Source of the DNA: a virus
DNA: 41,723 bases
IMG/VR virus record: IMGVR_UViG_3300043427_001714
Location: 1-41,723 of that record
Direction: 5' to 3' (one strand)
Program-made: the position numbers and the translations under genes
The notes under the pieces: model-generated
The model's input: only the letters and a program-made list of their open reading frames with translations
The model's database searches: none
What the model was told of the DNA's origin: nothing
Shown: in pieces, positions 1-11,730 of the stretch
Layout: every line of letters starts with the position of its first letter
How positions within the stretch are numbered: position 1 is the stretch's first letter

Positions 1-12
1 CGACGGATCACC
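1..12. repeat. cos: Left cohesive end (cos), copy 1 of terminal 12-bp repeat
   Basis: The first 12 bases, CGACGGATCACC, are identical to the last 12 bases of the window. Joining the ends through this overlap places it between the short symmetric flanks GGGTG and CACCC. The lambda Nu1/GpA terminase family, present here next to the right end, cuts staggered nicks that leave 12-nt 5' overhangs; filled-in overhangs would give exactly this repeat. A circular-assembly overlap is the alternative and would still imply a complete genome. Confidence 0.7.
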
Positions 13-46
13 CACATCTCAAAAATCCGGGGGAGGACCCGCAGAC

Positions 47-63
47 CCGTTGCGCCGCAACGG
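47..63. repeat. 17-bp perfect palindrome left of cos
   Basis: Arms CCGTTGCG and CGCAACGG flank a single C. The 11-bp core TTGCGCCGCAA occurs again in the palindrome at 41654-41670 on the other side of the cos junction, so the two flank cos symmetrically, roughly 90 bp apart in the circle. It may be a terminase or host-factor site in cos, or an RNA hairpin in the late transcript that crosses cos. Confidence 0.6.
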
Positions 64-99
64 TTCTCACTGTTCTCAACAGCGGGACGGGGGTGGTGA

Positions 100-765
100 T
101 CACTTGGCAGTTTTGATCGCGCGATCTAGCGCATTGCTGAGGTGAGTTGGGAAGTGCTGCGAGACCGTTTGATTGCCGACGCGTTCCATTGGGAAGCGAC
201 GGTCGTATTGCGGTTCATCGACCACGATGAAGTAGGGGAATAGGCGTTCACGGGAACGACGCCAAACGCCTGGTGTGCCACCGCCTTTGGGTGTGCCGAT
301 GAAGTAGCCACCGCGATCAGTGGATGAGAGCTTGGATTGGATCTCAGCGAAGAGCCTGCGCTTGGGGTTGCCGGCGGCGTTGACGGCCAGGGAGGTGGGG
401 ACGAGTTTGCCGGGGGGCAGTGTGTTGGTGGGCTGGTCGTTAGCGAGGCCACGGATGAAGCCCTCGTAGGCCTTCCAACGGCGGGTGCCACCAAAGGTCT
501 GGGGGTCGAAGTAGGGGCGGTTGGGTTGTGGGGCGATGGTGGCGACGAGGTTGGCCTTGGTGGACTTGGTGTAGCGGAAGGCGTTCTTGGTGAAGGCGGT
601 GGGGTTTTTGAAGGCGGTGGAGGTAGTGGCCTTGAAAGCTTGCTGAACGTCGCGGGCGGTGTTGTTGATGGCTACGGAGGTAGCGAAGGGGAGCTGACCT
701 TGGAAGGCGCCAACGAAGCGGCGCATGGGGTCGAGCTGAGAGGTATCGACGCTGACGTTGAGCAT
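100..765 (-). CDS. Putative virion structural protein upstream of cos (tail/neck-type)
   Basis: 221 aa, ATG at 765, stop just inside the left end. No signal peptide or membrane segment. The layout (N-terminal helical stretch ending AINNTARDVQQAF, then TPFT-like NPTAFTKNAF, basic middle, GTPKGGGTPGVWRR, and a hydrophobic FPYFIVVDEP) resembles a widespread phage protein family near head-tail and minor tail genes, often annotated as minor tail or gpZ-like. This is family resemblance by eye, not a search result. It is the last gene before cos on the minus strand, and read-through in the circular genome continues to terS. Function is uncertain; a neck or tail-completion role is the best guess. Confidence 0.6.
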   Translation of the reverse strand: MLNVSVDTSQLDPMRRFVGAFQGQLPFATSVAINNTARDVQQAFKATTSTAFKNPTAFTKNAFRYTKSTKANLVATIAPQPNRPYFDPQTFGGTRRWKAYEGFIRGLANDQPTNTLPPGKLVPTSLAVNAAGNPKRRLFAEIQSKLSSTDRGGYFIGTPKGGGTPGVWRRSRERLFPYFIVVDEPQYDRRFPMERVGNQTVSQHFPTHLSNALDRAIKTAK

Positions 766-771
766 GGGGTA

Positions 772-984
772 TCAGCGGTCCAGGAGTTCTTCGAGTTCCA
801 GCCTGCGCAGGTCGGTGTCGGAGGGGAGGTGCCACTCGCCCTGCTCTTCACCGTCGGCAGAGATGACGACGACGGAGGAGACGGTGCGCCAGGAGGCGAC
901 CCAGTTCACCACCAGCTCCTGCCACCAGGAGAGCCAGAGCATGTCGCGGGCTAGGAGCCAGGAGAGGTTGGCGGCGCGCTTCAT
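772..984 (-). CDS. Small conserved-looking late protein, function unknown
   Basis: 70 aa from ATG at 984 (starts MKRAANLSWLLARDM, ends RRLELEELLDR). Its stop lies 6 bases before the start codon of the 221-aa gene, suggesting translational coupling. The reading frame is open further upstream to 1209, but that extension is antisense to the divergent plus-strand genes and is not credible, so the internal ATG was chosen. Amphipathic, tryptophan-rich first half and acidic C terminus. It is the first minus-strand gene after the divergent control region 985-1115 and so may be the first gene of the late operon. No family recognised. Confidence 0.55.
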   Translation of the reverse strand: MKRAANLSWLLARDMLWLSWWQELVVNWVASWRTVSSVVVISADGEEQGEWHLPSDTDLRRLELEELLDR

Positions 985-1058
985 TGGGCGGTGGCGGCTG
1001 GGGACAGGCTGAGCACCCCCAGGTGTTTCAAGGTGGGACGCAGTGGACCCACCAGGAG

Positions 1059-1104
1059 AGGTTGCGGTCTGAGTCAAGACCGGCAGGATGATGCGGTCCA
1101 GACC
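1059..1104 (+). promoter_or_regulatory. Early promoter with overlapping operator
   Basis: AGGTTGCGGTCT, five bases, then AAGACCG (1059-1082) form an inverted repeat GGTCT-N5-AAGACC. The same arrangement occurs at 15678-15701 with identical spacing. A -35-like TTGCGG (1062-1067) and a -10-like CAGGAT (1084-1089) are 16 bp apart, so a bound protein would cover the promoter spacer. A second half-site GGTCCAGACC follows at 1095-1104. It drives the early genes from 1116. The binder is unknown; the HTH protein at 12545-13300 or the adjacent ribbon-helix-helix protein are candidates. Confidence 0.6.
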
Positions 1105-1115
1105 CAGACAAAGCG

Positions 1116-1301
1116 ATGATGCGAAAAACGCGGATCGGCGAAGAGCCGATGGTCCAGTGCAACACCTGGATGAGCGTCGACTTGGTGCGCAGGTTGGAGG
1201 AGCGGGCAACCGAACTGAGCCTGAGCCGATCCAGCTACGTGCGGATGGTGCTGGAGCAGGCGCTGAAGCGTGACGCCCGCTCCACCAGGAAGGGAGGTTG
1301 A
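1116..1301 (+). CDS. Ribbon-helix-helix (CopG/Arc-type) DNA-binding protein
   Basis: 61 aa, starting at the first of two adjacent ATG codons (1116 or 1119). Residues about 12-52 fit the ribbon-helix-helix plan: a beta strand (MVQCNTWMSVDLV), helix 1 (RRLEERATELSLS) and helix 2 beginning RSSYVRMVLEQAL, where S-x-S-x-Y-V-R is typical of CopG-like proteins. Such proteins dimerise and bind short inverted repeats with the strand. It is the first gene after the operator at 1059-1104 and may regulate its own promoter. It is followed 3 bases later by the next gene. Confidence 0.75.
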   Translation: MMRKTRIGEEPMVQCNTWMSVDLVRRLEERATELSLSRSSYVRMVLEQALKRDARSTRKGG

Positions 1302-1304
1302 GGG

Positions 1305-1526
1305 GTGAACCTGATCATGGTCGAGCACGACGACGTGCTGCTCGATGAGAGCTTGAGCTGGACGGCCAAAGGGCTGCTGGTGTTCGTGCTGGCGTGCGGC
1401 GCTACGGCGGAGCAGCCGATGACGCGTGAGCAGCTGTACCGCGGTGGTACGGAGCGCCAGGAGGAGATCGATGCAGCGCTGGAGGAGCTTCGACGCCGCG
1501 GCCTGCTGCTGGCGGAGGTGGAGTGA
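1305..1526 (+). CDS. Winged-helix phage replication-region protein
   Basis: 73 aa with a GTG start at 1305; GGGAGG lies about 10 bases upstream, supporting this start. The sequence DESLSWTAKGLLVFVL followed by TREQLYRGGTERQEEIDAALEELRRRGLL matches the helix-turn-helix plan seen at the N terminus of phage replisome-organiser proteins (a 'sleeping' helix, recognition helix, then an L-x-x-x-G-L wing). It overlaps the initiator gene by one base (TGATG), so the two are probably translated together and may act together at the origin. Confidence 0.65.
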   Translation: MNLIMVEHDDVLLDESLSWTAKGLLVFVLACGATAEQPMTREQLYRGGTERQEEIDAALEELRRRGLLLAEVE

Positions 1527-2371
1527 TGGCTGAACAGGGCTTGAGCGTGGTGTGCAACGGGTTCTGCCTGATGCCCAACCAGCTGCTGGACGAAGCGCCC
1601 GACAAGTCGTTCTGCCTTGTGTACCTCGTCGTGTACCGGCACGGGAATGGGTCACCGCAGGGTTGTTGGTGCAGCCACCAGCAGATCAGCAGGGAGAGCG
1701 GTGTGTACCTCAAGGGTGTGCGGCGTGCGCTGGCATGGCTGGAGGAGCACGGATGGCTGGAGGCGAACCGCCGAACGGGGAGCACGACGGTGTACCGGGT
1801 GATCGTGCAAGACCCCGAGCGAAAACGACCCAGGTCGAAAACGACCCAGGTCGAAACCGACCGGGGGGGTGGGTCGAAAACGACCGGGGGGGGTAGGGCG
1901 AAAACGACCTACAAACAAAATCCCTACAAACAAGATCCCAAGAACAAGATCCCAGTAGGTAGGGCCGCGCCTGACGGCGCTGCGACCGACCGGGGGAAGC
2001 GCTCGAAGGTTTTCAGGCCCAGGCCGGAGGACGTGCCACCGGAGCTGGGTGGTGCTGCAGCAGAGCTGCTGACCTTCTGGGGCGAGAAGGCCGGGAGCAA
2101 GAGCCAGCGGGCCTGGCTGGTGCTGCTGGCGGAACTGCGAAAAATCCAGCTCCACCGCGAAGGCGGTATCGCCGTGGTGCGGCAGCAGCTGCAGAACGGC
2201 ACGCAGGCCGGCTGGGCCAGCTGCACCTTCAGCAACTGGGAGCGCTACGGCAGGCAGCGGGTACAGGGCATCACGCCGAGGGGTTGCCGCGCTGACGAGA
2301 AATCCATTGCCGAGCTGGCGGCCGAGATGGAAGCCATGCCCGTGCTGTCGTTCAACCAACAACGCCGATGA
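1526..2371 (+). CDS. Replication initiator (lambda O-like organisation)
   Basis: 281 aa from ATG at 1526. Residues about 20-100 form a winged-helix domain (CLVYLVVYRHGNGSPQGCW, SHQQISRESGVYLKGVRRAL, LEEHGWLEANRR, YRVIV) of the kind found in phage replication initiators. A low-complexity, basic linker (about 95-150) is encoded by the iteron block at 1820-1951. The C-terminal part (about 165-270, LLTFWGEKAGSKSQRAW, IAVVRQQLQNGTQAGWASCTF) looks like a helical partner-binding domain. Carrying the origin inside the initiator gene is the arrangement of lambda O. No dnaC- or dnaB-like loader or helicase follows, so the partner is probably a host helicase or the SF2 helicase at 4179-6443. Confidence 0.7.
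   Translation: MAEQGLSVVCNGFCLMPNQLLDEAPDKSFCLVYLVVYRHGNGSPQGCWCSHQQISRESGVYLKGVRRALAWLEEHGWLEANRRTGSTTVYRVIVQDPERKRPRSKTTQVETDRGGGSKTTGGGRAKTTYKQNPYKQDPKNKIPVGRAAPDGAATDRGKRSKVFRPRPEDVPPELGGAAAELLTFWGEKAGSKSQRAWLVLLAELRKIQLHREGGIAVVRQQLQNGTQAGWASCTFSNWERYGRQRVQGITPRGCRADEKSIAELAAEMEAMPVLSFNQQRR
1820..1909 (+). repeat. ori: Five iterons of a probable replication origin
   Basis: Five copies of CGAAAACGACC begin at 1820, 1836, 1852 (one mismatch, CGAAACCGACC), 1875 and 1899. Each contains the dyad TCG/CGA around AAAA; most are preceded by G/GGT. Spacings of 16, 16, 23 and 24 bp are not multiples of three apart from the 24, so the repeat is kept at DNA rather than protein level. The block sits in the linker of the initiator gene, followed at once by AT-rich repeats, as expected for an initiator-bound origin. 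Confidence 0.75.
1908..1951 (+). repeat. AT-rich tandem 15-mers, probable duplex-unwinding element
   Basis: Three tandem 15-bp units: CCTACAAACAAAATC (1908-1922), CCTACAAACAAGATC (1923-1937) and the diverged CCAAGAACAAGATC (from 1938). They are purine-rich on one strand and clearly more AT-rich than the surrounding GC-rich DNA. Three AT-rich repeats next to initiator iterons is the textbook layout of an unwinding region. They encode the in-frame peptide repeat YKQNP-YKQDP-KNKIP. Confidence 0.65.
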
Positions 2372-2769
2372 GAGCTTCGAGCTTTTCGCTCGGTCTGCGG
2401 ACCTTGAGCACCGTGACGCCGTACATGCGGACGATCACCGAGGACGAGCTGAAGTGCCTGTGGATGCTGCTGGACGAGACCGTGCGCGATGGCGTTACGG
2501 ACGAGCAGTGGTTCTGGGCGATCAAGATCCGGATGAGCGAGCGGTCTGAGGACCAGCAGCTGCCGATCCACTACCAGGTGCTGCGGCACCTGTTCCGGCT
2601 GGAGAACGGCCAGCCCAATTTCCAGTGGGGGTTGAAGGCAGACCTGGCGGAGCGGATGAGCTTGTGCAGCACCCATGCGGAGGTGCAGAAGCTGGAGCAG
2701 CAGGCGCAGCAACCGAACCGACCGCGATTGGAGGCTGGTGGTGATGCCCTGCGGCTTGGAGGCCGGTGA
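2368..2769 (+). CDS. Hypothetical early protein
   Basis: 133 aa from ATG at 2368, overlapping the initiator stop (ATGA). An alternative start is the internal ATG of MRTITEDELKCLW about 20 residues in; the leading residues are low in similarity to anything. The core (DELKCLWMLLDETVRDGVTDEQWFWAIKIRMSERSED) is helical and acidic; the C terminus is Gln-rich. No enzyme motif is visible. Its place between the initiator and RusA suggests a replication accessory role, but nothing in the protein itself proves it. Confidence 0.65.
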   Translation: MRASSFSLGLRTLSTVTPYMRTITEDELKCLWMLLDETVRDGVTDEQWFWAIKIRMSERSEDQQLPIHYQVLRHLFRLENGQPNFQWGLKADLAERMSLCSTHAEVQKLEQQAQQPNRPRLEAGGDALRLGGR

Positions 2770-3047
2770 TGGACTGCCAGGGGCTGGTGATGCTGCTGGT
2801 GAAGCTGGTGGCGCGTGGGCTGGTGCCACTGGAGGCGCTCGATGAACCGAGCCCGGAATGGCAGGACAACGCACGGACCGCTGGACCGTGGGCGGTGCAG
2901 CGCGAACACCGGAACCTGGCCAGGGAGTGGATTGCAGCGAACCCAGAGCCGTGGGCAGCGCTGCTGGAGCAGTACCGGCAGGAGCGTGAGGAACGTGGTC
3001 AGCAGCGTGTGGGCATGACCAGCTGGCTGGAGGATGCGCTGCCGTGA
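2769..3047 (+). CDS. Hypothetical early protein, 92 aa
   Basis: 92 aa from ATG at 2769 (a GTG three bases earlier is in frame and makes an MM start). One-base overlap with the previous stop. The N terminus (GLVMLLVKLVARGLVPL) is hydrophobic helical but too interrupted to call a membrane segment. The C-terminal half is rich in Trp, Glu and Arg (EHRNLAREWIAANPEPWAALLEQYRQERE) and likely alpha-helical. No family recognised. It overlaps the RusA gene by 4 bases (GTGA), so it belongs to the same transcription unit. Confidence 0.6.
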   Translation: MDCQGLVMLLVKLVARGLVPLEALDEPSPEWQDNARTAGPWAVQREHRNLAREWIAANPEPWAALLEQYRQEREERGQQRVGMTSWLEDALP

Positions 3048-3604
3048 ACGATCAGGGTCCAGAGCGCGATGGCGCTCAGCAGCGGTCAGGACCGCCTACA
3101 AGGCCCCTGGAGGGTGATGGGCGGGGGATTGTGCCCGCAGAGCTGCAGGACGGCCTTGTAGGGGCTCCTGATGCGATCACGTTCGTGGTGGTGGGCCTGC
3201 CGGCACCGCAGGGCAGCAAGCGCCATGTCGGGAACGGCGTGATGGTCGAGTCGAGCAAGGCGGTCAAGCCATGGCGGCAGGACGTGAAGCACGCGGCGCT
3301 GCTGAAGGTGCCGAACGGCTGGGATCGCAGTGGTGCGATGGCGTTGACGGTGAGCTTTCGGTTCCGCCGGCCAAAGGGTCATTACGGCACGAGGGGATTG
3401 AAGCCCTCAGCGCCGGTGTGGAACGTCAGCGGGCGCTGCGGCGATCTGTCGAAGCTGGTGCGGGCGACGGAGGACGCGCTGACGGGTGTGGTGTGGGATG
3501 ACGACCGGCAGGTGACGACGACGGCGGCGTGCAAACGGTGGTGCATTGGTGAAGAACCGGCAGGAGCGGTGATCACCGTGGTGCGGCTCAGGGGAAGGGT
3601 CTGA
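3044..3604 (+). CDS. rusA: RusA-family Holliday junction resolvase
   Basis: 186 aa, GTG start overlapping the upstream stop. The RusA fold begins near residue 45 (FVVVGLPAPQGSKR, where P-x-P-QGSKR is typical) and includes KPWRQDVKHAA, GDLSKLVRATEDALTGVVWDDDRQV and a terminal strand. RusA homodimers cut four-way junctions using acidic residues in the D-L-x-K-L and DD-x-Q-V motifs. Here the first motif reads GDLSKL, with Ser where E. coli RusA has its second Asp. The approximately 45-residue leader is Gly/Pro-rich and overlies an RNA-foldable inverted repeat (3095-3162), so the true start may be downstream. It probably resolves recombination or replication intermediates together with Bet and the exonuclease. 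Confidence 0.85.
   Translation: MNDQGPERDGAQQRSGPPTRPLEGDGRGIVPAELQDGLVGAPDAITFVVVGLPAPQGSKRHVGNGVMVESSKAVKPWRQDVKHAALLKVPNGWDRSGAMALTVSFRFRRPKGHYGTRGLKPSAPVWNVSGRCGDLSKLVRATEDALTGVVWDDDRQVTTTAACKRWCIGEEPAGAVITVVRLRGRV
3095..3162 (+). promoter_or_regulatory. Nested inverted repeat at the 5' end of rusA
   Basis: CCTACAAGGCC (3095-3105) and its exact complement GGCCTTGTAGG (3152-3162) enclose a second potential hairpin, GCGGG (3121-3125) with CCCGC (3134-3138). The stem lies before the conserved start of the RusA domain. It could be a leader structure controlling translation, or a palindromic protein-binding site. Confidence 0.4.
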
Positions 3605-3616
3605 ACCGGCGGGGGC

Positions 3617-3643
3617 TTGCGGTTGCGGTCCAGATCGTATAGC
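3617..3643 (+). promoter_or_regulatory. Promoter for the HNH-helicase cassette
   Basis: A -35-like TTGCGG (3617-3622, repeated at 3623-3628) and a -10-like TATAGC (3638-3643) are separated by 15 bp in a gene-free stretch after rusA. GCGGTCCAGA at the spacer resembles the operator half-site at 1093-1104. It would start a new transcript into the genes from 3741. Confidence 0.45.
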
Positions 3644-3661
3644 TTCGTTGGTGCGGAACAA

Positions 3662-3679
3662 GACGGGCTGCAACCCGTC
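3662..3679 (+). terminator. Leader hairpin between rusA and the next gene
   Basis: GACGGG and CCCGTC form a 6-bp stem around CTGCAA, without a T-run. The sequence after it (3685-3707) can form a second stem of TGGCC with GGCCA. It may be a weak terminator of the rusA transcript or a structured 5' leader of the downstream cassette. The interval 3605-3740 holds no credible gene. Confidence 0.35.
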
Positions 3680-3740
3680 CCGCTCCTGGCCACCGGTCAG
3701 GCCACCACTCGCGCCCGACCACTGGTTGGGCTGATTTTCC

Positions 3741-3929
3741 ATGACTTCCCCGAACTTTGCTGCGGGGGCGGCCTCTGATGCCCTGATCCGCATCACCAGT
3801 CCCAGCACACGCACCATTGCCCTCTCTGGCCGCGAGCTGCGCCGTGAGGCCGCTAGGCGAGCCAAGCGCGAAGCCAAGAGCCAGCGCACCATCAACGGCT
3901 TTCAGCCAGCAGGTGGCGCCAATGGCTGA
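3741..3929 (+). CDS. Small basic protein, function unknown
   Basis: 62 aa from ATG at 3741. The second half (SGRELRREAARRAKREAKSQRT) is a strongly basic helix, suggesting nucleic-acid contact or a short coiled coil. It overlaps the next gene by 8 bases. It is the first gene of the cassette that ends with ssb. No family recognised. Confidence 0.5.
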   Translation: MTSPNFAAGAASDALIRITSPSTRTIALSGRELRREAARRAKREAKSQRTINGFQPAGGANG

Positions 3930-4215
3930 CGCATCTGCCTTCCTGGTTGCTCGCGAGTTCGATCAGCTCAACCATTTGATGGAGGAGACCTTCGGCGACT
4001 GCTTTGGCGTTGATGAGATCACGCCTGAGATGCCAAAGGAAGAGATCGAGGCCAAGCTGCACCGCTTCGCTGCCTTTGCAGATCAAGCCATCCCCAAGAT
4101 CGAATGGATCCTGATCCACTCAGGTGACATTCTTTCGGCAGAGCAGCGATCAACGCTGTCGCTGTATCGCGGCCAGCTATGCGAAATGCTTGCCATTCGA
4201 ATGGAGTGGACCTGA
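3922..4215 (+). CDS. Acidic helical protein, function unknown
   Basis: 97 aa from ATG at 3922 (MADASAFLVAREF); the frame is open further upstream to 3817 but that part is out of frame with, and hidden inside, the 62-aa gene. The protein is acidic and predicted helical (DQLNHLMEETFGDCFGVDEI, KEEIEAKLHRFAAFADQAI, LIHSGDILSAEQRSTLSLYRGQL). It overlaps the start of the HNH-helicase gene by 37 bases. A partner or regulator of that enzyme is possible from position only. Confidence 0.6.
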   Translation: MADASAFLVAREFDQLNHLMEETFGDCFGVDEITPEMPKEEIEAKLHRFAAFADQAIPKIEWILIHSGDILSAEQRSTLSLYRGQLCEMLAIRMEWT

Positions 4216-6443
4216 AGCATAGAAACCGGCGGCTGATTCGTAGCCGTCGGGATCGTTATCGCATCTACCGATCAACAGGCGGCCTATGCGCTCGCTGCCT
4301 GTGTGACCTTGGCTCTTACTGGGAAGTCGACCACATCACTCGCTGGGCTGATGGTGGCGATTCTCGATGGAGCAACCTTCAACCCTTATGCAGGCGCTGT
4401 CACGTTCTTAAAACCAAGGAGGAAAACACGATGGGATGCCCACTACGCCTAGCCAACTGGGGAACCCAAGAAGAAGGCGATGGCAAGCTCCGTCGAGGAC
4501 ACAAGGAAGGCTGCCTAGTCGCTTGTGAGCGGTTCAGTCGGGGAGAGAAGTTCACCTCTGTGATCCTTCCGACCCGCTACGGCAAAAGCCATCTGGCTCG
4601 CTTCATCACCCTTGCCGGCACCTTCGGCATCGAAGCCCCAACAGGTGTCATTCAGCCGTTTGCAAGCGGCTCTCTGTTCCTCACCCATAGGGGCTTTCTA
4701 AGCCGTCAGATCATCGAGGCGGAGAAATGGCGGCAGTTCGCCAAGACCTTCGAGGTTCTGAACATGCCGACTGTTACGGCATGTGAGATCAAAAGTTCTC
4801 CGGCCAGACCGCAGAACATCTGTGAAAACGGCGAGATCTTTGCCGTGACCACGATCCCTATGCTCAGCAACAACATTGACGTGTTTGTTGACTGGGTAGA
4901 AATCAAAAGTCGCATTGGTCGTCCGCCGATCATCTTCGCTGACGAGGCTCAGTTCTTCGGGGATGGAGACGACAAGAAGTGGGGACCGGCGTTGATCGAG
5001 CTGGCCCAGGCTGGTGCTTTCATCATGCCGATGACAGCCACGCCCATGCGGGCAGACGGCAACACCATTCCCGGTTTCCAAAAGCTGGGCGCGATTACTA
5101 GCAGCGAGCTGTACGCCACCTATGAGGAGATCGGCGCTGTTCACCCTGAGCTGGGTGTCGTCTTTGACCAAGATGGCAATCCCATCATCTGGAACAGAAA
5201 GGACATCTGGGACAAGCGGGTTGAAACCGCTGAGCTTGATGCTCACGTCAAGGTTGAACGCCAAGAAGCGTGGTTCCACAAGTACCTCTGCCGTCTGCAG
5301 CGCATCCGCATTCAGATTCGGATGACCAACGGCGAACTGCTGCAGGATCTACCTCCGACCGTTCAGCGCAGGCAACTGGGGCGGGTCATACGTGATCCGG
5401 TTGTGGTCGAGGAGTTTCTGAACTGTGCCGAGGAGAACCTGAAAGAGATCCGCGCCAAGGTGCTGGCTAATGCCGGCGTCATCGTGTTCGTTGACTCCAC
5501 CCGTGACGGTGATAGCCATGAGCGAATGGTGGAACGGATGGTCAAGAAGCTCAAGCGGGTGCCAATCGTTGCCACTCAGGAATCTGGCAACGCCCAGGCT
5601 CAAATCGACCGCTTTATCGCTGGAGAGGGTGACTACCTGATCGTCAAGAACAGTGCCGGCGCTGGCCTCGACTGCGAGCGCCTCAAGGTCGGTGTTGACC
5701 TTTCATCCGTTCGGCAGTTCGCAAGCTGCGAGCAGCGTTGGAATCGGGTGGCCACACCAACCAACGGCAAGGGCGGACGGATCACGGTCGCCACCATGAT
5801 CACTCCCGCCGACATTTTCTCTGATGAGATCTTCGACGCTATCTACACCAAACAAGGTGGTGAGTGCAAAGAGAGCGTCAGCGAGCTGGCCCGGACTGAG
5901 TACGTGCCGAAGATTCAACGAGATAAACCGCTTGAGCCACCCATCTTTGTTGATGCCGTTGAGGACCATGACTACAAGGACACGGGCGGCCTTGAAGCTG
6001 CTGGAAGTGAGATCCAGCGGGGCAGGGCTCTCGTAGAGATCATGTCTCAAAGTGCCGGCTTCAACCTTGGGAACATCACCATTCCCGAGGGCGCTCAGTT
6101 GGCAACCATCCTCAGGGTGTCCGATGAGGCACTGGGCCTGACCGAAGAAGACAGCAACCCAGGCGACGACTTCTTCGAGACCAGCACCAAGATCGGCCAG
6201 CTTCGGGCGGACAATGCCCGGATGGCCAAGCGGCTTGCCCAAGCGCGCACCGGAGTTGTGGATTCCGATTCCATGCGCTCCACTTGGAGAGACATCTATC
6301 AAACGGCCAACCAGCTGATCGGTGCCCGCTTTGGTAGCCGCCACTTCATCACCGGCAAGGTCTACCGCGAGACCAACGACATTCAAGTTGTCGATGCGGT
6401 GAACTGTGCCATCAACCGCCTGTGGCAGGGGGTGGCGGCATGA
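4179..6443 (+). CDS. HNH endonuclease fused to SF2 (DEAD/DEAH-like) helicase
   Basis: 754 aa from ATG 4179; GTG at 4206, nearer the end of the upstream gene, is a plausible alternative. Residues 25-80 are an HNH zinc-finger nuclease: C37-x2-C40, D51-H52, N66 and C71-x2-C74-H75. From residue 115 an SF2 motor follows: motif I PTRYGKS (131-137), motif II DEAQ (255-258), motif III TATP (286-289), motif IV-like VIVFVDST near 428, motif V near 490, and motif VI QRWNRV (519-524). A C-terminal region of about 200 residues is unassigned. Both catalytic sets look intact. The phage encodes no other recognisable helicase, so this may be the replicative or recombination helicase; a role in superinfection exclusion is an alternative. 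It is followed by an ATGA-overlapping gene. Confidence 0.8.
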   Translation: MRNACHSNGVDLKHRNRRLIRSRRDRYRIYRSTGGLCARCLCDLGSYWEVDHITRWADGGDSRWSNLQPLCRRCHVLKTKEENTMGCPLRLANWGTQEEGDGKLRRGHKEGCLVACERFSRGEKFTSVILPTRYGKSHLARFITLAGTFGIEAPTGVIQPFASGSLFLTHRGFLSRQIIEAEKWRQFAKTFEVLNMPTVTACEIKSSPARPQNICENGEIFAVTTIPMLSNNIDVFVDWVEIKSRIGRPPIIFADEAQFFGDGDDKKWGPALIELAQAGAFIMPMTATPMRADGNTIPGFQKLGAITSSELYATYEEIGAVHPELGVVFDQDGNPIIWNRKDIWDKRVETAELDAHVKVERQEAWFHKYLCRLQRIRIQIRMTNGELLQDLPPTVQRRQLGRVIRDPVVVEEFLNCAEENLKEIRAKVLANAGVIVFVDSTRDGDSHERMVERMVKKLKRVPIVATQESGNAQAQIDRFIAGEGDYLIVKNSAGAGLDCERLKVGVDLSSVRQFASCEQRWNRVATPTNGKGGRITVATMITPADIFSDEIFDAIYTKQGGECKESVSELARTEYVPKIQRDKPLEPPIFVDAVEDHDYKDTGGLEAAGSEIQRGRALVEIMSQSAGFNLGNITIPEGAQLATILRVSDEALGLTEEDSNPGDDFFETSTKIGQLRADNARMAKRLAQARTGVVDSDSMRSTWRDIYQTANQLIGARFGSRHFITGKVYRETNDIQVVDAVNCAINRLWQGVAA

Positions 6444-7165
6444 GGACGCTGACCAAGGCCGAAGCCCGCGCCGGCTCAATGACCAAGGAAGAGGCGGGCG
6501 TTGCAACTGTTGAGCGTGCGCTGCAGCTAGAGGGCTCTGCCATTGCGCTGCTGTGCCGTGAGCAGATGAAGCGCGACGACTGGGAGGGCCAACTCAAGGC
6601 ATGGGCTGAGAACCGCCCGTGGGAGTTCCTGCCCGATGATGAGGATGCCAAGTACGGCAAGGTCTGGACGTGGACGGCCACGCGCCTGACGCTGAACGGA
6701 GAGCCTTTGACCAGAACCCGACTGGTCGCGTTGCTGGCTGGCCTGCTGGGCACAACGGCACTGGCAGAGGCCAGGATCCAGCGTTTTGAGGCTGATATCT
6801 CGCAGCCTCTTCACCCCGGCGCTGGCCGCCCCAAAAAGGCTTTAATTCCTGACCCGGGTAAGGAATTAATCAGATCAGGCGCAACCTCTGGAGCTTGGGG
6901 CAACGACGCTGGCTACCTCATGGCCCGCCTCCAGCGCCTCGACCCAGAGATCGCCAGCAAGATCGGCAAGGGCAAGCCGTACCGCTCCATCAACCACGCC
7001 GCCCAAGAGCTGGGCATCGTCGCCCGCCGGCAGCGTTACGAACTGAACCCCGAGGTTGACGTGAAGAACGCTGCTGATCGCATCGTCCATGTTCTCGGCA
7101 CCGACAAGGCGGCAGAACTGGCCGCTGCACTGACCCAACGCCTCACGAACAATGCCAACCCGTAA
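6440..7165 (+). CDS. Putative DNA-binding protein of the helicase cassette
   Basis: 241 aa from ATG at 6440, overlapping the helicase stop by 4 bases. N-terminal half helical and acidic, with WAENRPWEFLP and VWTWTATRLTLNG; then a Leu/Ala-rich stretch (LVALLAGLLGTTALA) too short and mixed to be a clear membrane segment. The C-terminal half contains GAGRPKK, an AT-hook-like or basic patch, and GYLMARLQRLDPEIASKI plus SINHAAQELGIVARRQRY, a helix-turn-helix-like segment that resembles proteins of cyanobacterial mobile elements. A regulatory or ParB/KorB-like DNA-binding role is inferred; no enzyme motif is seen. Confidence 0.6.
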   Translation: MRTLTKAEARAGSMTKEEAGVATVERALQLEGSAIALLCREQMKRDDWEGQLKAWAENRPWEFLPDDEDAKYGKVWTWTATRLTLNGEPLTRTRLVALLAGLLGTTALAEARIQRFEADISQPLHPGAGRPKKALIPDPGKELIRSGATSGAWGNDAGYLMARLQRLDPEIASKIGKGKPYRSINHAAQELGIVARRQRYELNPEVDVKNAADRIVHVLGTDKAAELAAALTQRLTNNANP

Positions 7166-7316
7166 AGACGACGGTCGCAAGCTGATCCAGCTGACCATGA
7201 AGCCTGATCTCTACGCCCAGGTCAAAGCGACCTGTGCCCAGCTTGATATCCCATGCACCGTATGGATGCGGGAGCTGATCAAGCGTGAACTCAACAACCC
7301 CACCATCACCCCATGA
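7152..7316 (+). CDS. 54-aa ribbon-helix-helix protein
   Basis: ATG at 7152, TGA at 7314-7316, reading MPTRKDDGRKLIQLT and ending KRELNNPTITP. The fold signature is a short strand (RKLIQLTM), helix 1 (KPDLYAQVKATCAQLD) and helix 2 (CTVWMRELIKREL), as in CopG/MetJ/Arc proteins. It overlaps the preceding gene by 14 bases and the ssb start by 4 bases (ATGA), which supports real translation. It is probably a DNA-binding autoregulator of the cassette. Confidence 0.65.
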   Translation: MPTRKDDGRKLIQLTMKPDLYAQVKATCAQLDIPCTVWMRELIKRELNNPTITP

Positions 7317-7678
7317 GCAACCTGATCACCGTCACGATCCTCGGCCGTGCTGGTCGTGATCCTGAGATTCGCTACCTCCAGTCCGGCACCCAGGTCGCGG
7401 CCTTCACCATTGCCGTTGATGGCTGGTCGAAGGATGACGCCAAACCCAATACCCACTGGTTTGATGTGAAGGTCTGGGGCAAGCAGGCCCAGGTCTGCGC
7501 TGATTACCTGCGCAAGGGTCAGCTGGTCGGATTGTCCGGCCGTCTGGAGCAGGAACGCTGGACCACGAAAACCGGCGAAAAACGCAGCAGGGTTGTGATC
7601 GTTGCCTCCACCGTGCAGCTGCTTACGCCCAAGGCGAAGGCTGATCCGCAGCCTGAACCAGAAGACCTGCCGTTCTGA
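7313..7678 (+). CDS. ssb: Single-stranded DNA-binding protein (SSB)
   Basis: 121 aa. It starts MSNLITVTILGRAGRDPEIRY and contains the OB-fold hallmarks GRAGRDPE, AAFTIAVDGW, WFDVKVWGKQAQ, YLRKGQLVGLSGRLEQERW and RVVIVAS. It ends in a short acidic linker and the tip DLPF, the SSB C-terminal peptide that recruits helicases, polymerase-clamp proteins and recombination factors. It is shorter than host SSB because the Gly/Pro linker is reduced. Translationally coupled to the 54-aa gene upstream (ATGA) and to the 24-aa membrane peptide downstream (TGATG). It would coat DNA for the HNH-helicase, Bet annealase and replication. Confidence 0.93.
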   Translation: MSNLITVTILGRAGRDPEIRYLQSGTQVAAFTIAVDGWSKDDAKPNTHWFDVKVWGKQAQVCADYLRKGQLVGLSGRLEQERWTTKTGEKRSRVVIVASTVQLLTPKAKADPQPEPEDLPF

Positions 7679-7752
7679 TGCTCAGCTTCATCGTGTACTT
7701 CAGCCTGGGCTTCGCCTGCGGCTTCCTGCTGCCCGTACTGTTCGATGGTTGA
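7678..7752 (+). CDS. 24-aa single-pass membrane peptide coupled to ssb
   Basis: The ATG at 7678 shares a base with the ssb stop (TGATG). The encoded peptide starts MLSFIVYFSLGFACGFLLP and ends VLFDG. It is almost entirely hydrophobic and of the length of one membrane span, with no charged residue before the terminal Asp. Tight coupling favours real expression; the small size leaves it uncertain. Function unknown; a toxin-like or membrane-anchoring peptide is possible. Confidence 0.45.
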   Translation: MLSFIVYFSLGFACGFLLPVLFDG

Positions 7753-7757
7753 GATAA

Positions 7758-7818
7758 GCAGGGTGTGCAACCCCTGCTCCCCCCACAAGGGCAGGGCAGG
7801 AGTTGGCACCTCCTGCCC
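7758..7818. terminator. Tandem hairpins after the ssb cassette
   Basis: GCAGGG (7758-7763) pairs with CCCTGC (7772-7777). GGGCAGGAG (7794-7802) pairs perfectly with CTCCTGCCC (7810-7818) around a 7-base loop. No T-run follows, so this would be an atypical or bidirectional terminator between the plus-strand cassette and the convergent minus-strand genes. A third stem, GCCGT with ACGGC, lies near 7850. Confidence 0.5.
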
Positions 7819-7876
7819 TGATGAGCGGCGAACGATGAAAACTCCGCTCTGCCGTCCGGTAACACGGCACCGGAAC

Positions 7877-8407
7877 TTATATCTGCTCCGGTACGCCCAG
7901 GGTTTGACGTTTGATGCGCTGCGCCAGCTTCAGGTACTCGTCGTTGCTCATCGCGCCAGCCGTCACCAACTTCTCGGCCACCTCCAGCAGCGAGAGCGCA
8001 TCCTGCAGCTGCATCGCCCGATCGCAGATGTTGCGCCGCGGCCGGTACAGCGGCACCACCAGGGCCATCCCCGCCCGCAGACCGGCGATGCCCGTCACCG
8101 GCGCCTGCAGCTGACCGCTGTCGGAATAGGCGATCAACGCCGGCACATCACCGCCGCCAGCACGGCAGGTGAAACCGGAGGGGAACTGCAGCTCGATCTG
8201 ATCGCTCTTGGGCGCCCGCAGCTGATCAAGGGTTGAGCCGCCGGTGTTGGGCGAAATCCCCAGCACCGCCGCCGCAGGCGCCGCCGCCGCAGGCGCCGCG
8301 GGGACCTGCTGCGCTAGGGCTTGGCTGTAAAGAGCTTGCAGTACCTGAACATAGCCAGCAGCTGCGATTGCGAGCCACTTGCGGTAGGCGGATCTTTCCA
8401 CATGCAC
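7877..8407 (-). CDS. Exported protein of the fimbrial-like cassette
   Basis: 176 aa, ATG at 8407. After a basic N terminus (SAYRKW) comes a signal-peptide-like hydrophobic stretch ending SQALAQQ, then an Ala/Pro linker (residues about 35-47, encoded by a GC-rich repeat near 8265-8300), then a globular region with two cysteines (GFTCRAGGGD, RRNICDRAM) and a helical C terminus (LQDALSLLEVAEKLVTAGAM). It overlaps the upstream gene by 94 bases, unusually long, so a later start cannot be excluded. Likely periplasmic or surface-exposed. No enzyme motif. Expressed with the two upstream exported proteins. Confidence 0.65.
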   Translation of the reverse strand: MHVERSAYRKWLAIAAAGYVQVLQALYSQALAQQVPAAPAAAAPAAAVLGISPNTGGSTLDQLRAPKSDQIELQFPSGFTCRAGGGDVPALIAYSDSGQLQAPVTGIAGLRAGMALVVPLYRPRRNICDRAMQLQDALSLLEVAEKLVTAGAMSNDEYLKLAQRIKRQTLGVPEQI

Positions 8408-8733
8408 ACGGCCAATAACTGCTCGCCACTGATGGCCTTGCCCGGCACAATCACCAGCACGCGGTTCTTGACACCGGGCTGGGTGTTCAACCGCGCCGGC
8501 CGCAGCGATGTGCCCTCCACCGGTTCACCGATGCGGCCATCGGCCGACACGCGGAACACCTCGTACTGCAGACCAGGCACCGCCTGGCTGGTGCTCAACT
8601 GAGAGCGGACCACATAGTCGCCACCCGGAGTGGGGCGAACGGTCTTGGGAAGCTCGATGCCGTCAGCCAGGGCCGGCCCAGCGGCCAGCCCCAGCGACAG
8701 CACCGCCCCACTGAGGAGACGGCGCAACAGCAT
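8314..8733 (-). CDS. Exported protein resembling a single-domain pilus chaperone
   Basis: 139 aa. The signal peptide is clear: basic MLLRRLL, hydrophobic core, cleavage after PALA. The mature part is a predicted beta protein; RPARLNTQPGVKNRVLVIVPG followed by SGEQLLAVCMWKDPP echoes the PapD-type chaperone N-terminal domain, in which a Pro-rich strand, a G-x-x-x-R-V edge strand and an E-x-L-x-x-x strand hold fimbrial subunits. No second chaperone domain is present, so the call is tentative. The start overlaps the upstream stop by one base. It could assist folding or display of the 162-aa exported protein. Confidence 0.6.
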   Translation of the reverse strand: MLLRRLLSGAVLSLGLAAGPALADGIELPKTVRPTPGGDYVVRSQLSTSQAVPGLQYEVFRVSADGRIGEPVEGTSLRPARLNTQPGVKNRVLVIVPGKAISGEQLLAVCMWKDPPTASGSQSQLLAMFRYCKLFTAKP

Positions 8734-9221
8734 CAGTTGGGCGCAATGCAGTCAGTGGTCACCAGGGCGGTGTAGGTGCCCTGCGCCATGAGGGTGCCCT
8801 GGGGAGCCGAGACCGCCAGGGTCATCTGGAAGTCGTCGTTGGCGGTCAGGCCGTTGGCGTAGGGGATCACGGCAGAAGCACCGGCCTGGGTGGCGCTGGT
8901 CACCTGGGCGCCGTTGTTGACCTGCAGGCCAGCGTTCCAGGTGTAGTTGCCGGTGTTGGCGGGAGCAGCATTGATCTGCACCTGACGCAGCTGCAGCTGC
9001 ACGGCGCCGTTGCTGGCGAAGGAGAAGGCGTTGGTGGTGCCACTCAGCACGCCATCGACGTAGCTCATGGGGGTGCTGGCGTTGACCGGATCGGCCACCT
9101 GGCAGATGGCAGGGACGGTGCCGCTGAACTCACTGCTCTGGGAGGCGAGCTGGGCAGAAGCGGGGAGGCCGGCCAAGGCCAGCGTGAGGCCGCTAGCGGC
9201 GGCCGCAAAGGAACGAAGCAT
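8733..9221 (-). CDS. Secreted fimbrial/spore-coat-U-like protein
   Basis: 162 aa. Signal peptide with cleavage after PASA (residue about 24), then an all-beta, Ala/Thr/Asn/Gln-rich protein with Cys near residue 40 (PAICQVADP) and Cys near 158 (TTDCIAPN) placed to form one disulfide. The pattern (FSGTVPAICQ at the start, G-T-Y-T-A-L-V-T-T at the end) resembles fimbrial-type and spore-coat-protein-U-like beta-sandwich subunits common in cyanobacteria. First gene of a three-gene minus-strand unit with a promoter at 9262-9290. Not a virion gene by position; a surface protein made by lysogens is the likeliest role. Confidence 0.7.
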   Translation of the reverse strand: MLRSFAAAASGLTLALAGLPASAQLASQSSEFSGTVPAICQVADPVNASTPMSYVDGVLSGTTNAFSFASNGAVQLQLRQVQINAAPANTGNYTWNAGLQVNNGAQVTSATQAGASAVIPYANGLTANDDFQMTLAVSAPQGTLMAQGTYTALVTTDCIAPN

Positions 9222-9261
9222 GGATCCGCCGTGCGGGAAACAGCTCCAAGTTGCAGCACCC

Positions 9262-9290
9262 GCAATAGAATGCAGTTAAGAATATGTGAA
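9262..9290 (-). promoter_or_regulatory. Promoter of the exported-protein cassette
   Basis: Read on the minus strand, TTCACA (9290-9285) is a near-consensus -35 and TATTGC (9267-9262) a weak -10, 17 bp apart. The element sits in a small AT-rich island (about 9265-9297) in otherwise GC-rich DNA, about 40 bases before the start codon at 9221. A promoter of its own is expected for a gene set expressed from the prophage. Confidence 0.45.
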
Positions 9291-9302
9291 GTTTTGCCAA
9301 GT

Positions 9303-9409
9303 GCCCAGGGCTCACGCACCACTGGGCTTGTATGACGACGGGCCTGGCCTCCGCCGACCGCAATGCCCTCGGTAGGCATTTGCCTCCAGAGACTAGCGAT
9401 ATCCGCTAG
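9303..9409. repeat. Cluster of three short inverted repeats
   Basis: GCCCAG/CTGGGC (9303-9308, 9322-9327), AATGCC/GGCATT (9362-9367, 9375-9380) and CTAGCG/CGCTAG (9393-9398, 9404-9409) lie in the 190-bp interval between the divergent genes 8733-9221 and 9418-9597. They may be operators, RNA hairpins or part of a recombination site. No gene was found in 9222-9411. Confidence 0.4.
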
Positions 9410-9417
9410 CCGTGGCG

Positions 9418-9597
9418 ATGAACAACGAACCGATGCTCTGGATCGAGGTGCTGAATGACGGCGCGATCCAGCTTACCTTCGGCGATCAGGTCGGCATCGT
9501 CAGCAGTCACCATCTGATCCACCCGAAGGCTGAGCAGTTGCGGCAGGCGTGGATCGTTAAGCACCGCCCGGAGTTTCCACCGCCATCGGCGCAGTAA
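9418..9597 (+). CDS. Small hypothetical protein
   Basis: 59 aa from ATG at 9418; GTG at 9412 is an alternative adding two residues. A compact, ordered-looking sequence (EPMLWIEVLNDGAIQLTFGD, then QVGIVSSHHLIHPKAEQLRQAW) with a beta-rich first half and a Pro-rich end. It stands alone between the exported-protein cassette and the integrase and is followed at once by the strong hairpin 9599-9634. No family recognised. Confidence 0.55.
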   Translation: MNNEPMLWIEVLNDGAIQLTFGDQVGIVSSHHLIHPKAEQLRQAWIVKHRPEFPPPSAQ

Positions 9598-9598
9598 A

Positions 9599-9634
9599 GG
9601 CCGCCAGCAGGGTCTTCCCATCCTGCTGGCGGCC
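9599..9634. terminator. Strong 13-bp stem-loop terminator
   Basis: GGCCGCCAGCAGG (9599-9611) and CCTGCTGGCGGCC (9622-9634) form a perfect 13-bp stem with a 10-base loop directly after the stop codon at 9597. There is no U-run on the plus strand; on the minus strand the stem is followed by TTTACTG. It probably separates the 59-aa gene from the integrase region. Confidence 0.6.
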
Positions 9635-9746
9635 TGTCGCTGCGGGATCTGGGTGGATGTCAATCCTGACCATGACGATCAGTACCGCCGCGCCCAGTGT
9701 CACGACGGCTTGCTGAGCCTACTGATCTGAGTCGTGACCGGCGGAT

Positions 9747-9770
9747 CGTCTAAGCTCAGTCCAGACCGCC
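9747..9770 (+). promoter_or_regulatory. Operator-like element before the 9783 start
   Basis: CGTCTAAGCT followed by CAGTCCAGACCGC. The second half matches the element at 12511-12523 (TAGTCCAGACCGC), and TCTAAGCT recurs at 12026-12033 before the cyAbrB gene. It lies just before the ATG at 9783, as the related copy at 12506-12541 lies just before the ATG at 12545. It belongs to the GTCTnAGTCnAGACC family described under findings. Confidence 0.5.
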
Positions 9771-9782
9771 GCACGTCAGACC

Positions 9783-9992
9783 ATGGACCTGGGCTCCGCT
9801 GTGCGCGCCATCACCGCTCGATACGACGCCGCTACAGCCTCAGGGCAATGGCCGTCGGCACCTGTCTGGTTATCTCAATCGATGCCACCAGCTGCTGCAG
9901 CATCGTGCGCACCTCGTCGTAGGTCGCAAGGTCAGCCCACCGTGGATCGGCGATCTTCTCCAGCAGCTGCTGATCAACGCTCGGCTGCTTGA
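9783..9992 (+). CDS. Short open frame antisense to the integrase 3' end
   Basis: 69 aa from ATG at 9783 after an operator-like element. The first 35 residues (MDLGSAVRAITARYDAATAS and so on) look like ordinary protein; the remainder, which overlaps the integrase gene on the other strand, is Ala/Pro/Arg-rich like an antisense shadow. It may be a short real gene whose tail was overwritten, or a gene interrupted by an ancestral recombination event next to the integrase. Kept at low confidence because the regulatory element in front is convincing. Confidence 0.3.
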   Translation: MDLGSAVRAITARYDAATASGQWPSAPVWLSQSMPPAAAASCAPRRRSQGQPTVDRRSSPAAADQRSAA

Positions 9993-11112
9993 GCACCGCC
10001 ACCAGCCGGTGACGCTTGGCCTCGATTACCGGCAGCAGGTCGGGATCATCAAGGGCTTCCAGCTTGGTGATCTGCTGGCGTAGCTCCACCGCTTCCGGCG
10101 GTTCATCGTTACGGGCTGCCGCGGCCAGCTGTGATGCAGCACCTGTCGCGAGCTGCTGCAGGGCGAAGGCGATGATCACCGCCTCCCTGGTGCCCTTGTA
10201 GAGCTGGCTGCAGGTTTCACCGCTGCAGCGCAACGATGGGATGGTCCGGCCGCCGATGTACTTGAGGGTGTTGCCGCACTCTGCGCAACGGCAGAGGCTG
10301 GTGAGCGCCCTGGGGATGGTGGTGGCGTTCGCACCCCATCGTTTGCGGTTTGATTCGGTGATCGCCAGGAAGGATGCGAAGTCTGCATGGCTGAGCACCG
10401 GCTGATGACGATCCCAGAGGATCTCCCTGAACTGGTGGTTTGGCAGTTGGTGGTAGCCGACGCCGCCGCGGAGGGTGGGGTTGAGGAGCCAGCTGCGGAC
10501 GCCACGAACGGAACGGAACGGCACTGCCGGCAACGCCTTGAGGGATGGGAGCATCCGCCAGCTGTTGGCCTTGAGGGTGGCGATGAACCGCTCAGCGATC
10601 GGGTACTGATCAGGGTGCGGCTCGAAGGCGGTGCGATCGGCGTTGAGGCGATACCCCCAGCAGGGCTTGCGCATGGGCTTCCCGAGTTTGCGGCCTTCGT
10701 TCAACCCGCGGAGGATGCGCTGGCTGATGCGCATACTCTCGCCTTGGGCGAGGCTGCCCTTGAGGCGCGTGAGCAGCAGATCCTCCGGTGTCGTGAGGGT
10801 GAGGCGACCGTCCTGCAGGGTGCGGACGACGGTGCGGTGCTGATCGCAGAGCGCGATGAAGGCATCGGATTCTGCGGCGTCACGGCCGAGGCGTGAGAAC
10901 TCGGTAGCGACGACCTGAGCGACGGTGCCGGCCTGGATGAGGGAACGGAGCTGCTGGTAGTTCTCGCGGGCGGTGGAGAGTCCAGACTCGATATCAGAGA
11001 GGATGAGGTCGCAGCCCTCGCGTTCCAGGGCAGAGCGCTGGTGTGGGAGAGCAGCGAGCTGATCACCGGAGGCGGTGGAGACGCGTGCGTAACCGATGCG
11101 GAGCCTGTCCAT
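9832..11112 (-). CDS. int: Large serine recombinase (phage integrase)
   Basis: 426 aa from ATG at 11112. The resolvase/invertase catalytic domain spans residues 1-150: GYARVST with nucleophile S12, then QRSALEREGCDLILSDIESG, EFSRLGRD and SQRILRGLNEGRKLGKP. The recombinase domain follows (PCWGYRLN, PDQYPIAERFIATL, SWLLNPTLRGGVGY), then a zinc ribbon (C-x-C-x2-C ending at ECGNTLKYIGG, with LRCSGETC) and a coiled-coil C terminus. It is somewhat shorter than most such integrases and resembles the XisF type of cyanobacteria. It recombines attP with a host attB without host factors; excision needs a directionality factor, not identified here. An inverted repeat 23 bp upstream is a likely attP. Confidence 0.9.
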   Translation of the reverse strand: MDRLRIGYARVSTASGDQLAALPHQRSALEREGCDLILSDIESGLSTARENYQQLRSLIQAGTVAQVVATEFSRLGRDAAESDAFIALCDQHRTVVRTLQDGRLTLTTPEDLLLTRLKGSLAQGESMRISQRILRGLNEGRKLGKPMRKPCWGYRLNADRTAFEPHPDQYPIAERFIATLKANSWRMLPSLKALPAVPFRSVRGVRSWLLNPTLRGGVGYHQLPNHQFREILWDRHQPVLSHADFASFLAITESNRKRWGANATTIPRALTSLCRCAECGNTLKYIGGRTIPSLRCSGETCSQLYKGTREAVIIAFALQQLATGAASQLAAAARNDEPPEAVELRQQITKLEALDDPDLLPVIEAKRHRLVAVLKQPSVDQQLLEKIADPRWADLATYDEVRTMLQQLVASIEITRQVPTAIALRL

Positions 11113-11134
11113 CGCCCTCGTGCTCTAGAGGGAA

Positions 11135-11182
11135 TGTAACCCGTATGGACCCGTTGCTCGCGGTAGGTCCATACGGGTTACA
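11135..11182. other. attP: 48-bp inverted repeat, candidate attP or int operator
   Basis: TGTAACCCGTATGGACC (11135-11151) and its perfect complement GGTCCATACGGGTTACA (11166-11182) flank 14 bases; the symmetry centre is the dinucleotide TC at 11158-11159. Serine-integrase attP sites are about 50 bp, dyad-symmetric and next to int, and this fits in size, symmetry and place. The same palindrome could instead be an operator controlling int and the divergent gene. Confidence 0.55.
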
Positions 11183-11228
11183 ATGAAGGAGTGGGGGGAA
11201 CCCACGGAACATGGACAACTGAAGAACC

Positions 11229-11285
11229 GCGGGAGGCGTCCCGCTCCGGTGGCCCTCACCCAGGCACCACTGAGTCCCGCCTGGG
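11229..11285 (+). promoter_or_regulatory. Structured leader upstream of the 59-aa coiled-coil gene
   Basis: GCGGGA/TCCCGC (11229-11244) and CCCAGGC/GCCTGGG (11259-11265, 11279-11285) form consecutive stems in the region between the inverted repeat 11135-11182 and the ATG at 11309. An open frame from ATG 11183 runs through in phase with the downstream gene, but its residues look unlike protein (Pro/Arg/Gly-rich). A 5' untranslated regulatory structure is more likely. Confidence 0.4.
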
Positions 11286-11308
11286 GGCTCACCCACACGG
11301 AGAACCAC

Positions 11309-11488
11309 ATGGACGCCACCACCCGCACCCTCCTCGCTGAGATCGAGGCGGACCGTCAGGAGACAGCAGCGCTGCTCGCTGAACTGGACACCGCGATCGA
11401 GGCGTATGGACGCTCCATCGAGCAGGGACTGGCCCTGGCCGCAGAGATGCGCGACCTGGCCGCCCAGCTGGAGGAGTGGTCCTGCTGA
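11309..11488 (+). CDS. 59-aa coiled-coil protein
   Basis: ATG at 11309 with GGAGA 7 bases upstream, which decides this start over the in-frame ATG at 11183. The protein (MDATTRTLLAEIEADRQETA and onward) is one long acidic heptad helix with Leu/Ala at a and d positions, ending EEWSC. It lies divergent from the integrase. Its size and position fit an excision factor (recombination directionality factor), which for serine integrases often has no recognisable family and can be coiled-coil, but this is positional inference only. Confidence 0.55.
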   Translation: MDATTRTLLAEIEADRQETAALLAELDTAIEAYGRSIEQGLALAAEMRDLAAQLEEWSC

Positions 11489-11495
11489 GGGACAC

Positions 11496-11511
11496 GCCCC
11501 CTTCTGGGGGC
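11496..11511 (+). terminator. Hairpin after the coiled-coil gene
   Basis: GCCCCC and GGGGGC form a 6-bp stem with a TTCT loop 8 bases after the stop codon. No U-run follows. The interval 11512-11730 contains no convincing gene; a Pro/Arg-rich frame ending at 11700 was judged unreliable. Confidence 0.45.
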
Positions 11512-11730
11512 ACTGAATCACCGGCCACAAACCAGATAGAGCGCCCTGGTCCCTCTCCGCCCGACACGACAGGCCCCGGCAACAGATCACACGACCGAGT
11601 CACCAATCGAGATCAACCGCCCTGGATAAGGCTGCATCGCCGGTTGGCCCGGCACCACCACTCACGAACCGAGCAGGCCGTGCGCGCCGCTCGCTTCTGA
11701 TCCCATCGCCCGGCACTGGCCGGTTGAACC

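Follow-up and report, generated by a model that had tools for sequence, protein, structure and literature searches.

A probable replication origin of iterons and AT-rich repeats inside the initiator gene of a tailed phage

The virus record IMGVR_UViG_3300043427_001714 of IMG/VR (41,723 bases, classed linear; the full record was analysed and is called the window) very probably carries its phage replication origin at positions 1817-1953, within the coding sequence of its own initiator. A lambda-O-like origin in the initiator gene had been proposed in the initial annotation, and the proposal gained support: a wHTH domain, dyad repeats inside the gene, an AT-rich block and a C-terminal domain are present in the window and in the relatives of readable length. 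The anatomy of this locus, its constraint at the DNA level, the joint exchange of wHTH recognition part and iterons in relatives and the constancy of the AT-rich repeat were read from the sequence.

Results and discussion

The initiator gene and its product

1523..2371, plus strand: initiator gene, 282 aa from GTG, alternative ATG at 1526
residues ~17-92 of the initiator, numbered from ATG: wHTH domain
residues ~100-160, same numbering: disordered linker
residues ~166-235, same numbering: helical C-domain

On sequence evidence, the gene 1523-2371 is a phage wHTH replication initiator outside the Pfam family Phage_rep_O. HMM comparison of the window protein yielded PHROG 270 (replication initiation protein; 2.3e-10), PHROG 391 and PHROG 678 (both 'replication initiation O-like'; 9.7e-9 and 1.5e-8), and the three families match 37 of the 37 aligned family members, window included. 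Pfam PF04492 (Phage_rep_O) had no match in the window protein; lambda O matches it at 5.7e-36. The only Pfam match was HTH_36 (4.8e-5), with 23.5 bits under the cut-off of 25, and hhalign against lambda O gave a probability of 2.4. AlphaFold2 with 37 aligned sequences modelled a confident wHTH and a confident helical C-domain. The segment between the two domains reached a pLDDT of ~44-51, in agreement with the disordered linker of the initial annotation. The layout is thus of the lambda type, an N-terminal DNA-binding domain joined to a separate C-terminal domain via a flexible linker. In the structure comparison, 2v79 (DnaD) and 4pt7/4pql (Z 8.4-8.5) tied with many unrelated winged helices. 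A sequence search for solved structures returned none for lambda O or the window protein, the sole entry for the latter being an unrelated enzyme (E 0.11).

The iteron array

1817..1830, plus strand: iteron 1, GAGCGAAAACGACC, 2 mismatches to the dyad, frame 0
1833..1846, plus strand: iteron 2, GGTCGAAAACGACC, perfect, frame 1
1849..1862, plus strand: iteron 3, GGTCGAAACCGACC, 1 mismatch, frame 2
1872..1885, plus strand: iteron 4, perfect, frame 1
1896..1909, plus strand: iteron 5, GGGCGAAAACGACC, 1 mismatch, frame 1

Five dyads span 1817-1909 in the linker DNA. Five iterons with spacings of 16, 16, 23 and 24 had been annotated, and the positions of the CGAAAACGACC cores confirm them: the cores start at 1820, 1836, 1852, 1875 and 1899, the third (1852) being CGAAACCGACC with one mismatch. 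Every core forms the right-hand portion of a dyad of 14 bp, GGTCG-AAAA-CGACC, designated type A. The dyads lie in frames 0, 1, 2, 1 and 1 and therefore encode differing peptides. The non-triplet spacing had been taken as a sign of selection at the DNA level, a view borne out by these frames and by synonymous-codon shuffles (n = 2000; protein and codon usage fixed; copies of any 11-mer with at most 1 mismatch counted in 1781-1960). None of the 2000 shuffles reached the five 11-mer copies observed, and three reached four. The three same-arm dyads observed were likewise reached by none of 2000. Among 180-bp stretches taken every 30 bases along the whole window, at least 4 copies occurred solely over the iteron block, and the best dyad matches elsewhere in the window have two or three mismatches. 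Adjacent iterons 16 bp apart also form a longer palindrome, which at 1826-1853 on the minus strand scores as a terminator-like stem with a T run.

The adjoining AT-rich block

1914..1953, plus strand: AT-rich block, candidate unwinding element, AACAAAATCCC at 1914, AACAAGATCCC at 1929 and AACAAGATCCC at 1943

The AT-rich block consists of the 11-mers AACAA(A/G)ATCCC at 1914-1924, 1929-1939 and 1943-1953, spaced by 15 and 14. Three AT-rich 15-mers up to 1951 had been described before; the number of three units stood, the repeat is better drawn as an 11-mer than as a 15-mer, and the block ends two bases further. In duplex instability the 60 bp at 1901-1960 rank 17th of 41,663 window positions. 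The initial annotation had suggested the cumulative GC skew as a check of the origin, which turned out uninformative: the cumulative curve has its extreme at the ends of the record, ~1.8 kb from the block, and the skew largely tracks the gene strand. GC skew was therefore rejected as an origin marker.

Relatives and iteron types

Protein searches with the window initiator found no relative in IMG/VR or GTDB. By protein, the sole isolate relative is CPKG_00028 of cyanophage KBS-S-2A (HQ634187; 27 % identity, E 2e-8), whose host is Synechococcus WH7803. Relatives were reached via KBS-S-2A (15 IMG/VR loci), DNA patterns and a profile (80 loci), and a few others were added; with identical DNA removed, the set comprised 76 distinct genes, window included. 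Plasmid records gave two weak matches. A scan of IMG/VR for two type-A dyads, using DNA only, returned 33 stretches, several of them on near-identical contigs, and in every one of the 33 the dyads fall within the linker region of a wHTH initiator. The iteron pair had 0 matches in GTDB genome contigs, so no prophage host was found.

With a repeat finder ignorant of the motif, families of 12-mers were collected from the linker, wHTH and C-terminal stretches. The linkers of all 76 genes have a family of at least 3 copies, and those of 63 one of at least 5; as control, wHTH stretches have at least 3 copies in 1/76 and C-terminal stretches in 0/75. Synonymous shuffles reach at least 5 copies in 7/228. 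Loss of the repeats in close relatives had been named in advance as evidence against an origin; instead, in 76/76 genes the linker repeats are kept or are swapped in place.

Genes with at least 3 type-A dyads at no more than 3 mismatches were counted as type A. This type comprises 51 of the 76 genes with 252 dyads in all, distributed over the frames as 72/67/113. Three frames are used by 30 of these genes, two by 21 and one by none. The spacings between type-A dyads are dominated by 16, 23 and 24. The other 25 genes have different repeats in the same place, GGTTCAAAAATGAACC, TACCGGATCCGGTA, GTGCCCAAAAAGGCAC, TTACGAAAACGTAA and others; most have a central A-tract, some are without, and some have weak dyad symmetry in an automatic consensus. 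A universal A-tract centre was rejected, as L081, L137 and L180-L186 are without A-tract. Further types, e.g., GGAGCAAAAATGCTCC and CCTACTGAAAACAGTAGG, occur among loci found via the AT repeat alone.

Constancy of the AT-rich repeat

In the relatives the AT unit was defined as AACAARA(A/T)CCC with at most 2 mismatches to AACAAGAACCC. At least 2 units, mostly 14 nt apart, are present in 69 of the 76 genes, in two frames in 42 of them and in three frames in 27. The remaining 7 genes have one unit or none; one of these genes is truncated, and the KBS-S-2A gene has one unit. Among 37 distinct AT blocks the 11 positions are nearly invariant and the 3-nt spacer is variable. From the start of the last type-A dyad to the start of the first 11-mer, 49 of 50 genes have a distance of 18 nt and one has 19.

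When two AACAAGAACCC units were sought, 77 stretches were found, 74 of them in such wHTH initiators, with six of the 74 failing a simple script motif (truncated or variant) and assigned by reading. The other three lie in two copies of a primase-helicase-like gene (L148 and L158, by reading) and in a geneless stretch (L168). Scanning for the AT variant of the window itself gave 9 stretches, all 9 in initiators by reading, one of which is truncated. In the large primase-helicase-like gene (L148 5974, L158), which is again a gene of replication type, the double 11-mer encodes QEPVKQEPIKQEP and is probably a coding repeat.

The 11-mer is alike beside many iteron types and also beside two types of C-domain, between which hhalign found no relation (probability 0.4). 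This constancy across iteron and C-domain types makes the exchanged wHTH an unlikely reader of the 11-mer; a host factor or shared factor may read it. A likeness to the oriC 13-mers and the DnaA-trios was considered, but no claim of one is made.

Joint exchange of wHTH and iterons

Repeats that are replaced in place by another type go together with the wHTH, as found among the 76 distinct genes. Nucleotide identities were computed for 17 gene pairs in the order upstream/wHTH/linker/C-domain/downstream; four pairs are presented for contrast, and others among the 17 have mixed or ordinary divergence. L129 and L073 have identities of 89/54/55/93/91, L012 and L081 of 93/65/58/95/93 (upstream over 113 aligned bases), and L012 and L065 of 79/59/64/95/95. 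L067 and L086 are mostly 98-100 % identical up to just before the recognition helix, 47-73 % across the recognition helix and iterons, and back at 96 % at the AT block. Between the two genes the recognition helix differs (SRKVIQR versus SQFVIRR), and so does the iteron type. Judged from these identities, the genes are natural chimeras, in which the dyads were exchanged along with the recognition part of the wHTH between near-identical flanks. The joint change of DNA-binding domain and iterons beside a constant C-domain concerns the relatives, not the window itself.

As the wHTH and the iterons are contiguous, their joint exchange could be plain linkage, and physical linkage can explain part of it. 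Plain linkage is weakened by the adjacent AT block, which is unexchanged, and by the left breakpoint of L067/L086, which lies inside the wHTH. The window wHTH is nearest to that of L065 (53 %), whose iterons differ; L114 (41 %) has the type of the window. Descent alone thus does not set the iteron type, and the rule that the closest wHTH has the same iterons was rejected. The window helix YLKGVRR and the type-A helices SRKxxQR have the third-place K and the last-place R in common, and we hypothesise that these two residues set the iteron type.

Proposed mechanism and alternative readings

From the anatomy we infer binding, dimerisation, melting, helicase loading and origin activity. The wHTH of the initiator would bind the five A-tract-centred iterons in its own coding sequence, probably as a dimer, because each site is a dyad. 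The protein-DNA array would then strain and open the adjoining AT-rich 11-mers, and the C-domain would recruit the replicative helicase, perhaps via the product of the next gene.

Some initiators also autoregulate, and wHTH folds are common among repressors; the repeats might be operators by which the protein regulates its own operon, with replication starting elsewhere. We regard this as improbable. The sites lie ~300-390 bp inside the gene, and five copies at fixed spacing stand beside an AT block of low stability, whose own conserved repeats keep a constant distance of 18 nt; operators do not need such a neighbour. The PHROG assignments are to replication. A scan of 1000-2500 for sigma-70-type promoters found none, although promoters of such phages may not fit the scan. 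Action of the repeats as RNA, by mRNA hairpins or by an antisense terminator-like stem controlling expression, is very improbable: the dyads could pair as RNA, and the adjoining iterons form such a stem on the minus strand at 1853-1826, but the dyads are often imperfect while the direct-repeat spacing is maintained, the dyad sequence changes with the recognition helix, and Rfam gave no match. That the repeats belong to the protein, as a charged and disordered linker that is repetitive by chance, we consider equally remote. The linker is disordered and the peptides RSKTT, QVEND and GRKRP recur in it, but the same DNA yields the unrelated peptides SKTT, VEND and RKRP in different frames. The AT 11-mer, too, runs in two or three frames in 69/69 genes with at least 2 units, and synonymous shuffles do not recreate the window array and seldom those of the relatives.

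An origin inside the initiator gene is compatible with two readings of the AT-rich block. The origin may consist of two parts, an exchangeable lock of recognition helix and iterons, swapped as one piece within the ORF, and a constant AACAARAWCCC opener with a separate reader; we put this near, though below, an even chance. The opener would recur at a period of ~14 nt, 18 bp from the last iteron, and its reader would be independent of the wHTH and of the C-domain type; the replicative helicase, DnaA or another host factor might take this role. Quite possible, at a slightly lower level of confidence, is that the 11-mers are a mere weak-duplex spacer with a sequence kept by common descent. The low stability of the block agrees with a spacer, and so does the AT-rich region of lambda, for which the consulted part of PMC5043065 describes no strict repeat. 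Against a spacer stand the 11 positions that are kept while the 3-nt spacer varies and the frames change, and the likeness of the 11-mer beside two unrelated C-domain types and many iteron types.

Comparison with known origins

Among the closest models is the ori of phage lambda in gene O (NC_001416), with dyad iterons inside the initiator ORF followed by an AT-rich block. Both features, several dyad iterons in the initiator ORF and an adjoining AT-rich block of low stability, were found in the window. The lambda iterons are of the kind TCCCTCAAAACGAGGGA, with an AAAA centre in three of the four annotated, and their annotated starts differ by 20, 24 and 23. According to the consulted part of PMC5043065, O dimers bind to inverted 19-bp repeats that are nearly perfect, and an adjacent A+T-rich region of 40 bp opens; no 14-nt AT repeat is described there for lambda. 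Lambda differs from the window in its protein family, in the number of iterons (4 versus 5) and in their sequence and spacing.

In P22 and phage L, the gene 18 origins belong to distantly related initiators, each with its own coding-region repeats (PMC8022706, in part). These enteric phages diverged over the whole gene, whereas in the family of the window closely related genes have breakpoints inside one ORF. O hybrids (lambda-phi80 and lambda-82) appear as a cited title in the excerpt of PMC6022878. The RepA of PLE satellites undergoes domain shuffling, in which the binding domain is exchanged together with its origin, and cognate pairing rests on experiment (PMC8263062, as far as excerpted). 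In contrast to the window, the PLE initiator is of the RepA_N type, and the PLE origin occupies an intergenic region of its own and not the ORF.

KBS-S-2A matches the window in the position of its iterons and AT-rich stretch, but has five CCCCCAAAAGGTGG-type repeats at spacings of 16, 24, 24 and 53, and diverged AT repeats. CPKG_00028 is annotated as hypothetical, and a term search in the accessible text of the genome announcement (PMC3751600) found neither 'replication' nor a replication origin. Gene 45 of Microbacterium phage DelaGarza (L188 560-860) is a wHTH gene with AGGTCAGNNNGACCT-like dyad repeats in its linker, then CTACGAACAAG, and adjoins an annotated helicase loader. It differs in the weak DNA match (E 0.1), the short degenerate array and the actinobacterial host; it looks as if the same origin layout extended to actinophages.

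In-gene iterons of differing specificity (lambda, P22, phage L) and the exchange of a binding domain together with its origin (PLE) are already known. New within the literature searched are the initiator family, the placing of breakpoints within a single ORF, the constant 18-nt distance and the frame-free conserved AT repeat, the last being the most novel part. The titles and abstracts found in the open-licence literature searched describe neither origins in these cyanosiphoviruses nor an AACAARAWCCC repeat. The proposed locus would give a precise origin and initiator to a virus group whose sole close isolate found is annotated 'hypothetical', and would add another initiator family, one with a cyanophage member, to those with in-gene origins of the lambda style. 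The wHTH recognition helices and their matching DNA sites form a natural series that could serve to derive and test a recognition code. As the DNA pattern alone finds these initiators, origins could be annotated directly in metagenomic phage contigs. If the origin does consist of an exchangeable lock and a constant opener, phages could change their replication specificity by a single recombination.

Gene neighbourhood and phage context

1116..1301, plus strand: ribbon-helix-helix-like small protein upstream of the initiator, weak matches only
2368..2769, plus strand: neighbour gene P0002 of the initiator, 133 aa, helicase loader by position only
3044..3604, plus strand: RusA-like Holliday junction resolvase in the same early region as the initiator

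The product of P0002 is, by position only, a reasonable candidate for a helicase loader. Direct searches with P0002 gave no relatives and domain searches no family match, and its AF2 model was poor (pLDDT 59), too weak for a fold search. A further 29 loci, which include duplicates of one contig, have a homologue, and such homologues adjoin initiators of several iteron types in the corresponding position; the counterpart at L050 is 37 % identical.

Tailed-phage genes of the window comprise terminase large subunit, portal, major head protein, tape measure and endolysin. The virus appears to be a distant relative of cyanobacterial phage; a phage collection gave no near match to window 1-12000. 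At 4179-6443 (plus strand), a protein of 754 aa has the unusual combination of an N-terminal HNH nuclease and a weak helicase match in its C-terminal part. A large serine recombinase or integrase-like gene at 9832-11112 (minus strand; phrog_95, 5e-39) suggests a temperate lifestyle of the window phage, in contrast to KBS-S-2A, which lacks an integrase according to the portion of PMC3751600 at hand. At 17099-18061 (plus strand) lies a gene for a phage-encoded RNA polymerase sigma factor (phrog_351, 2.5e-55).
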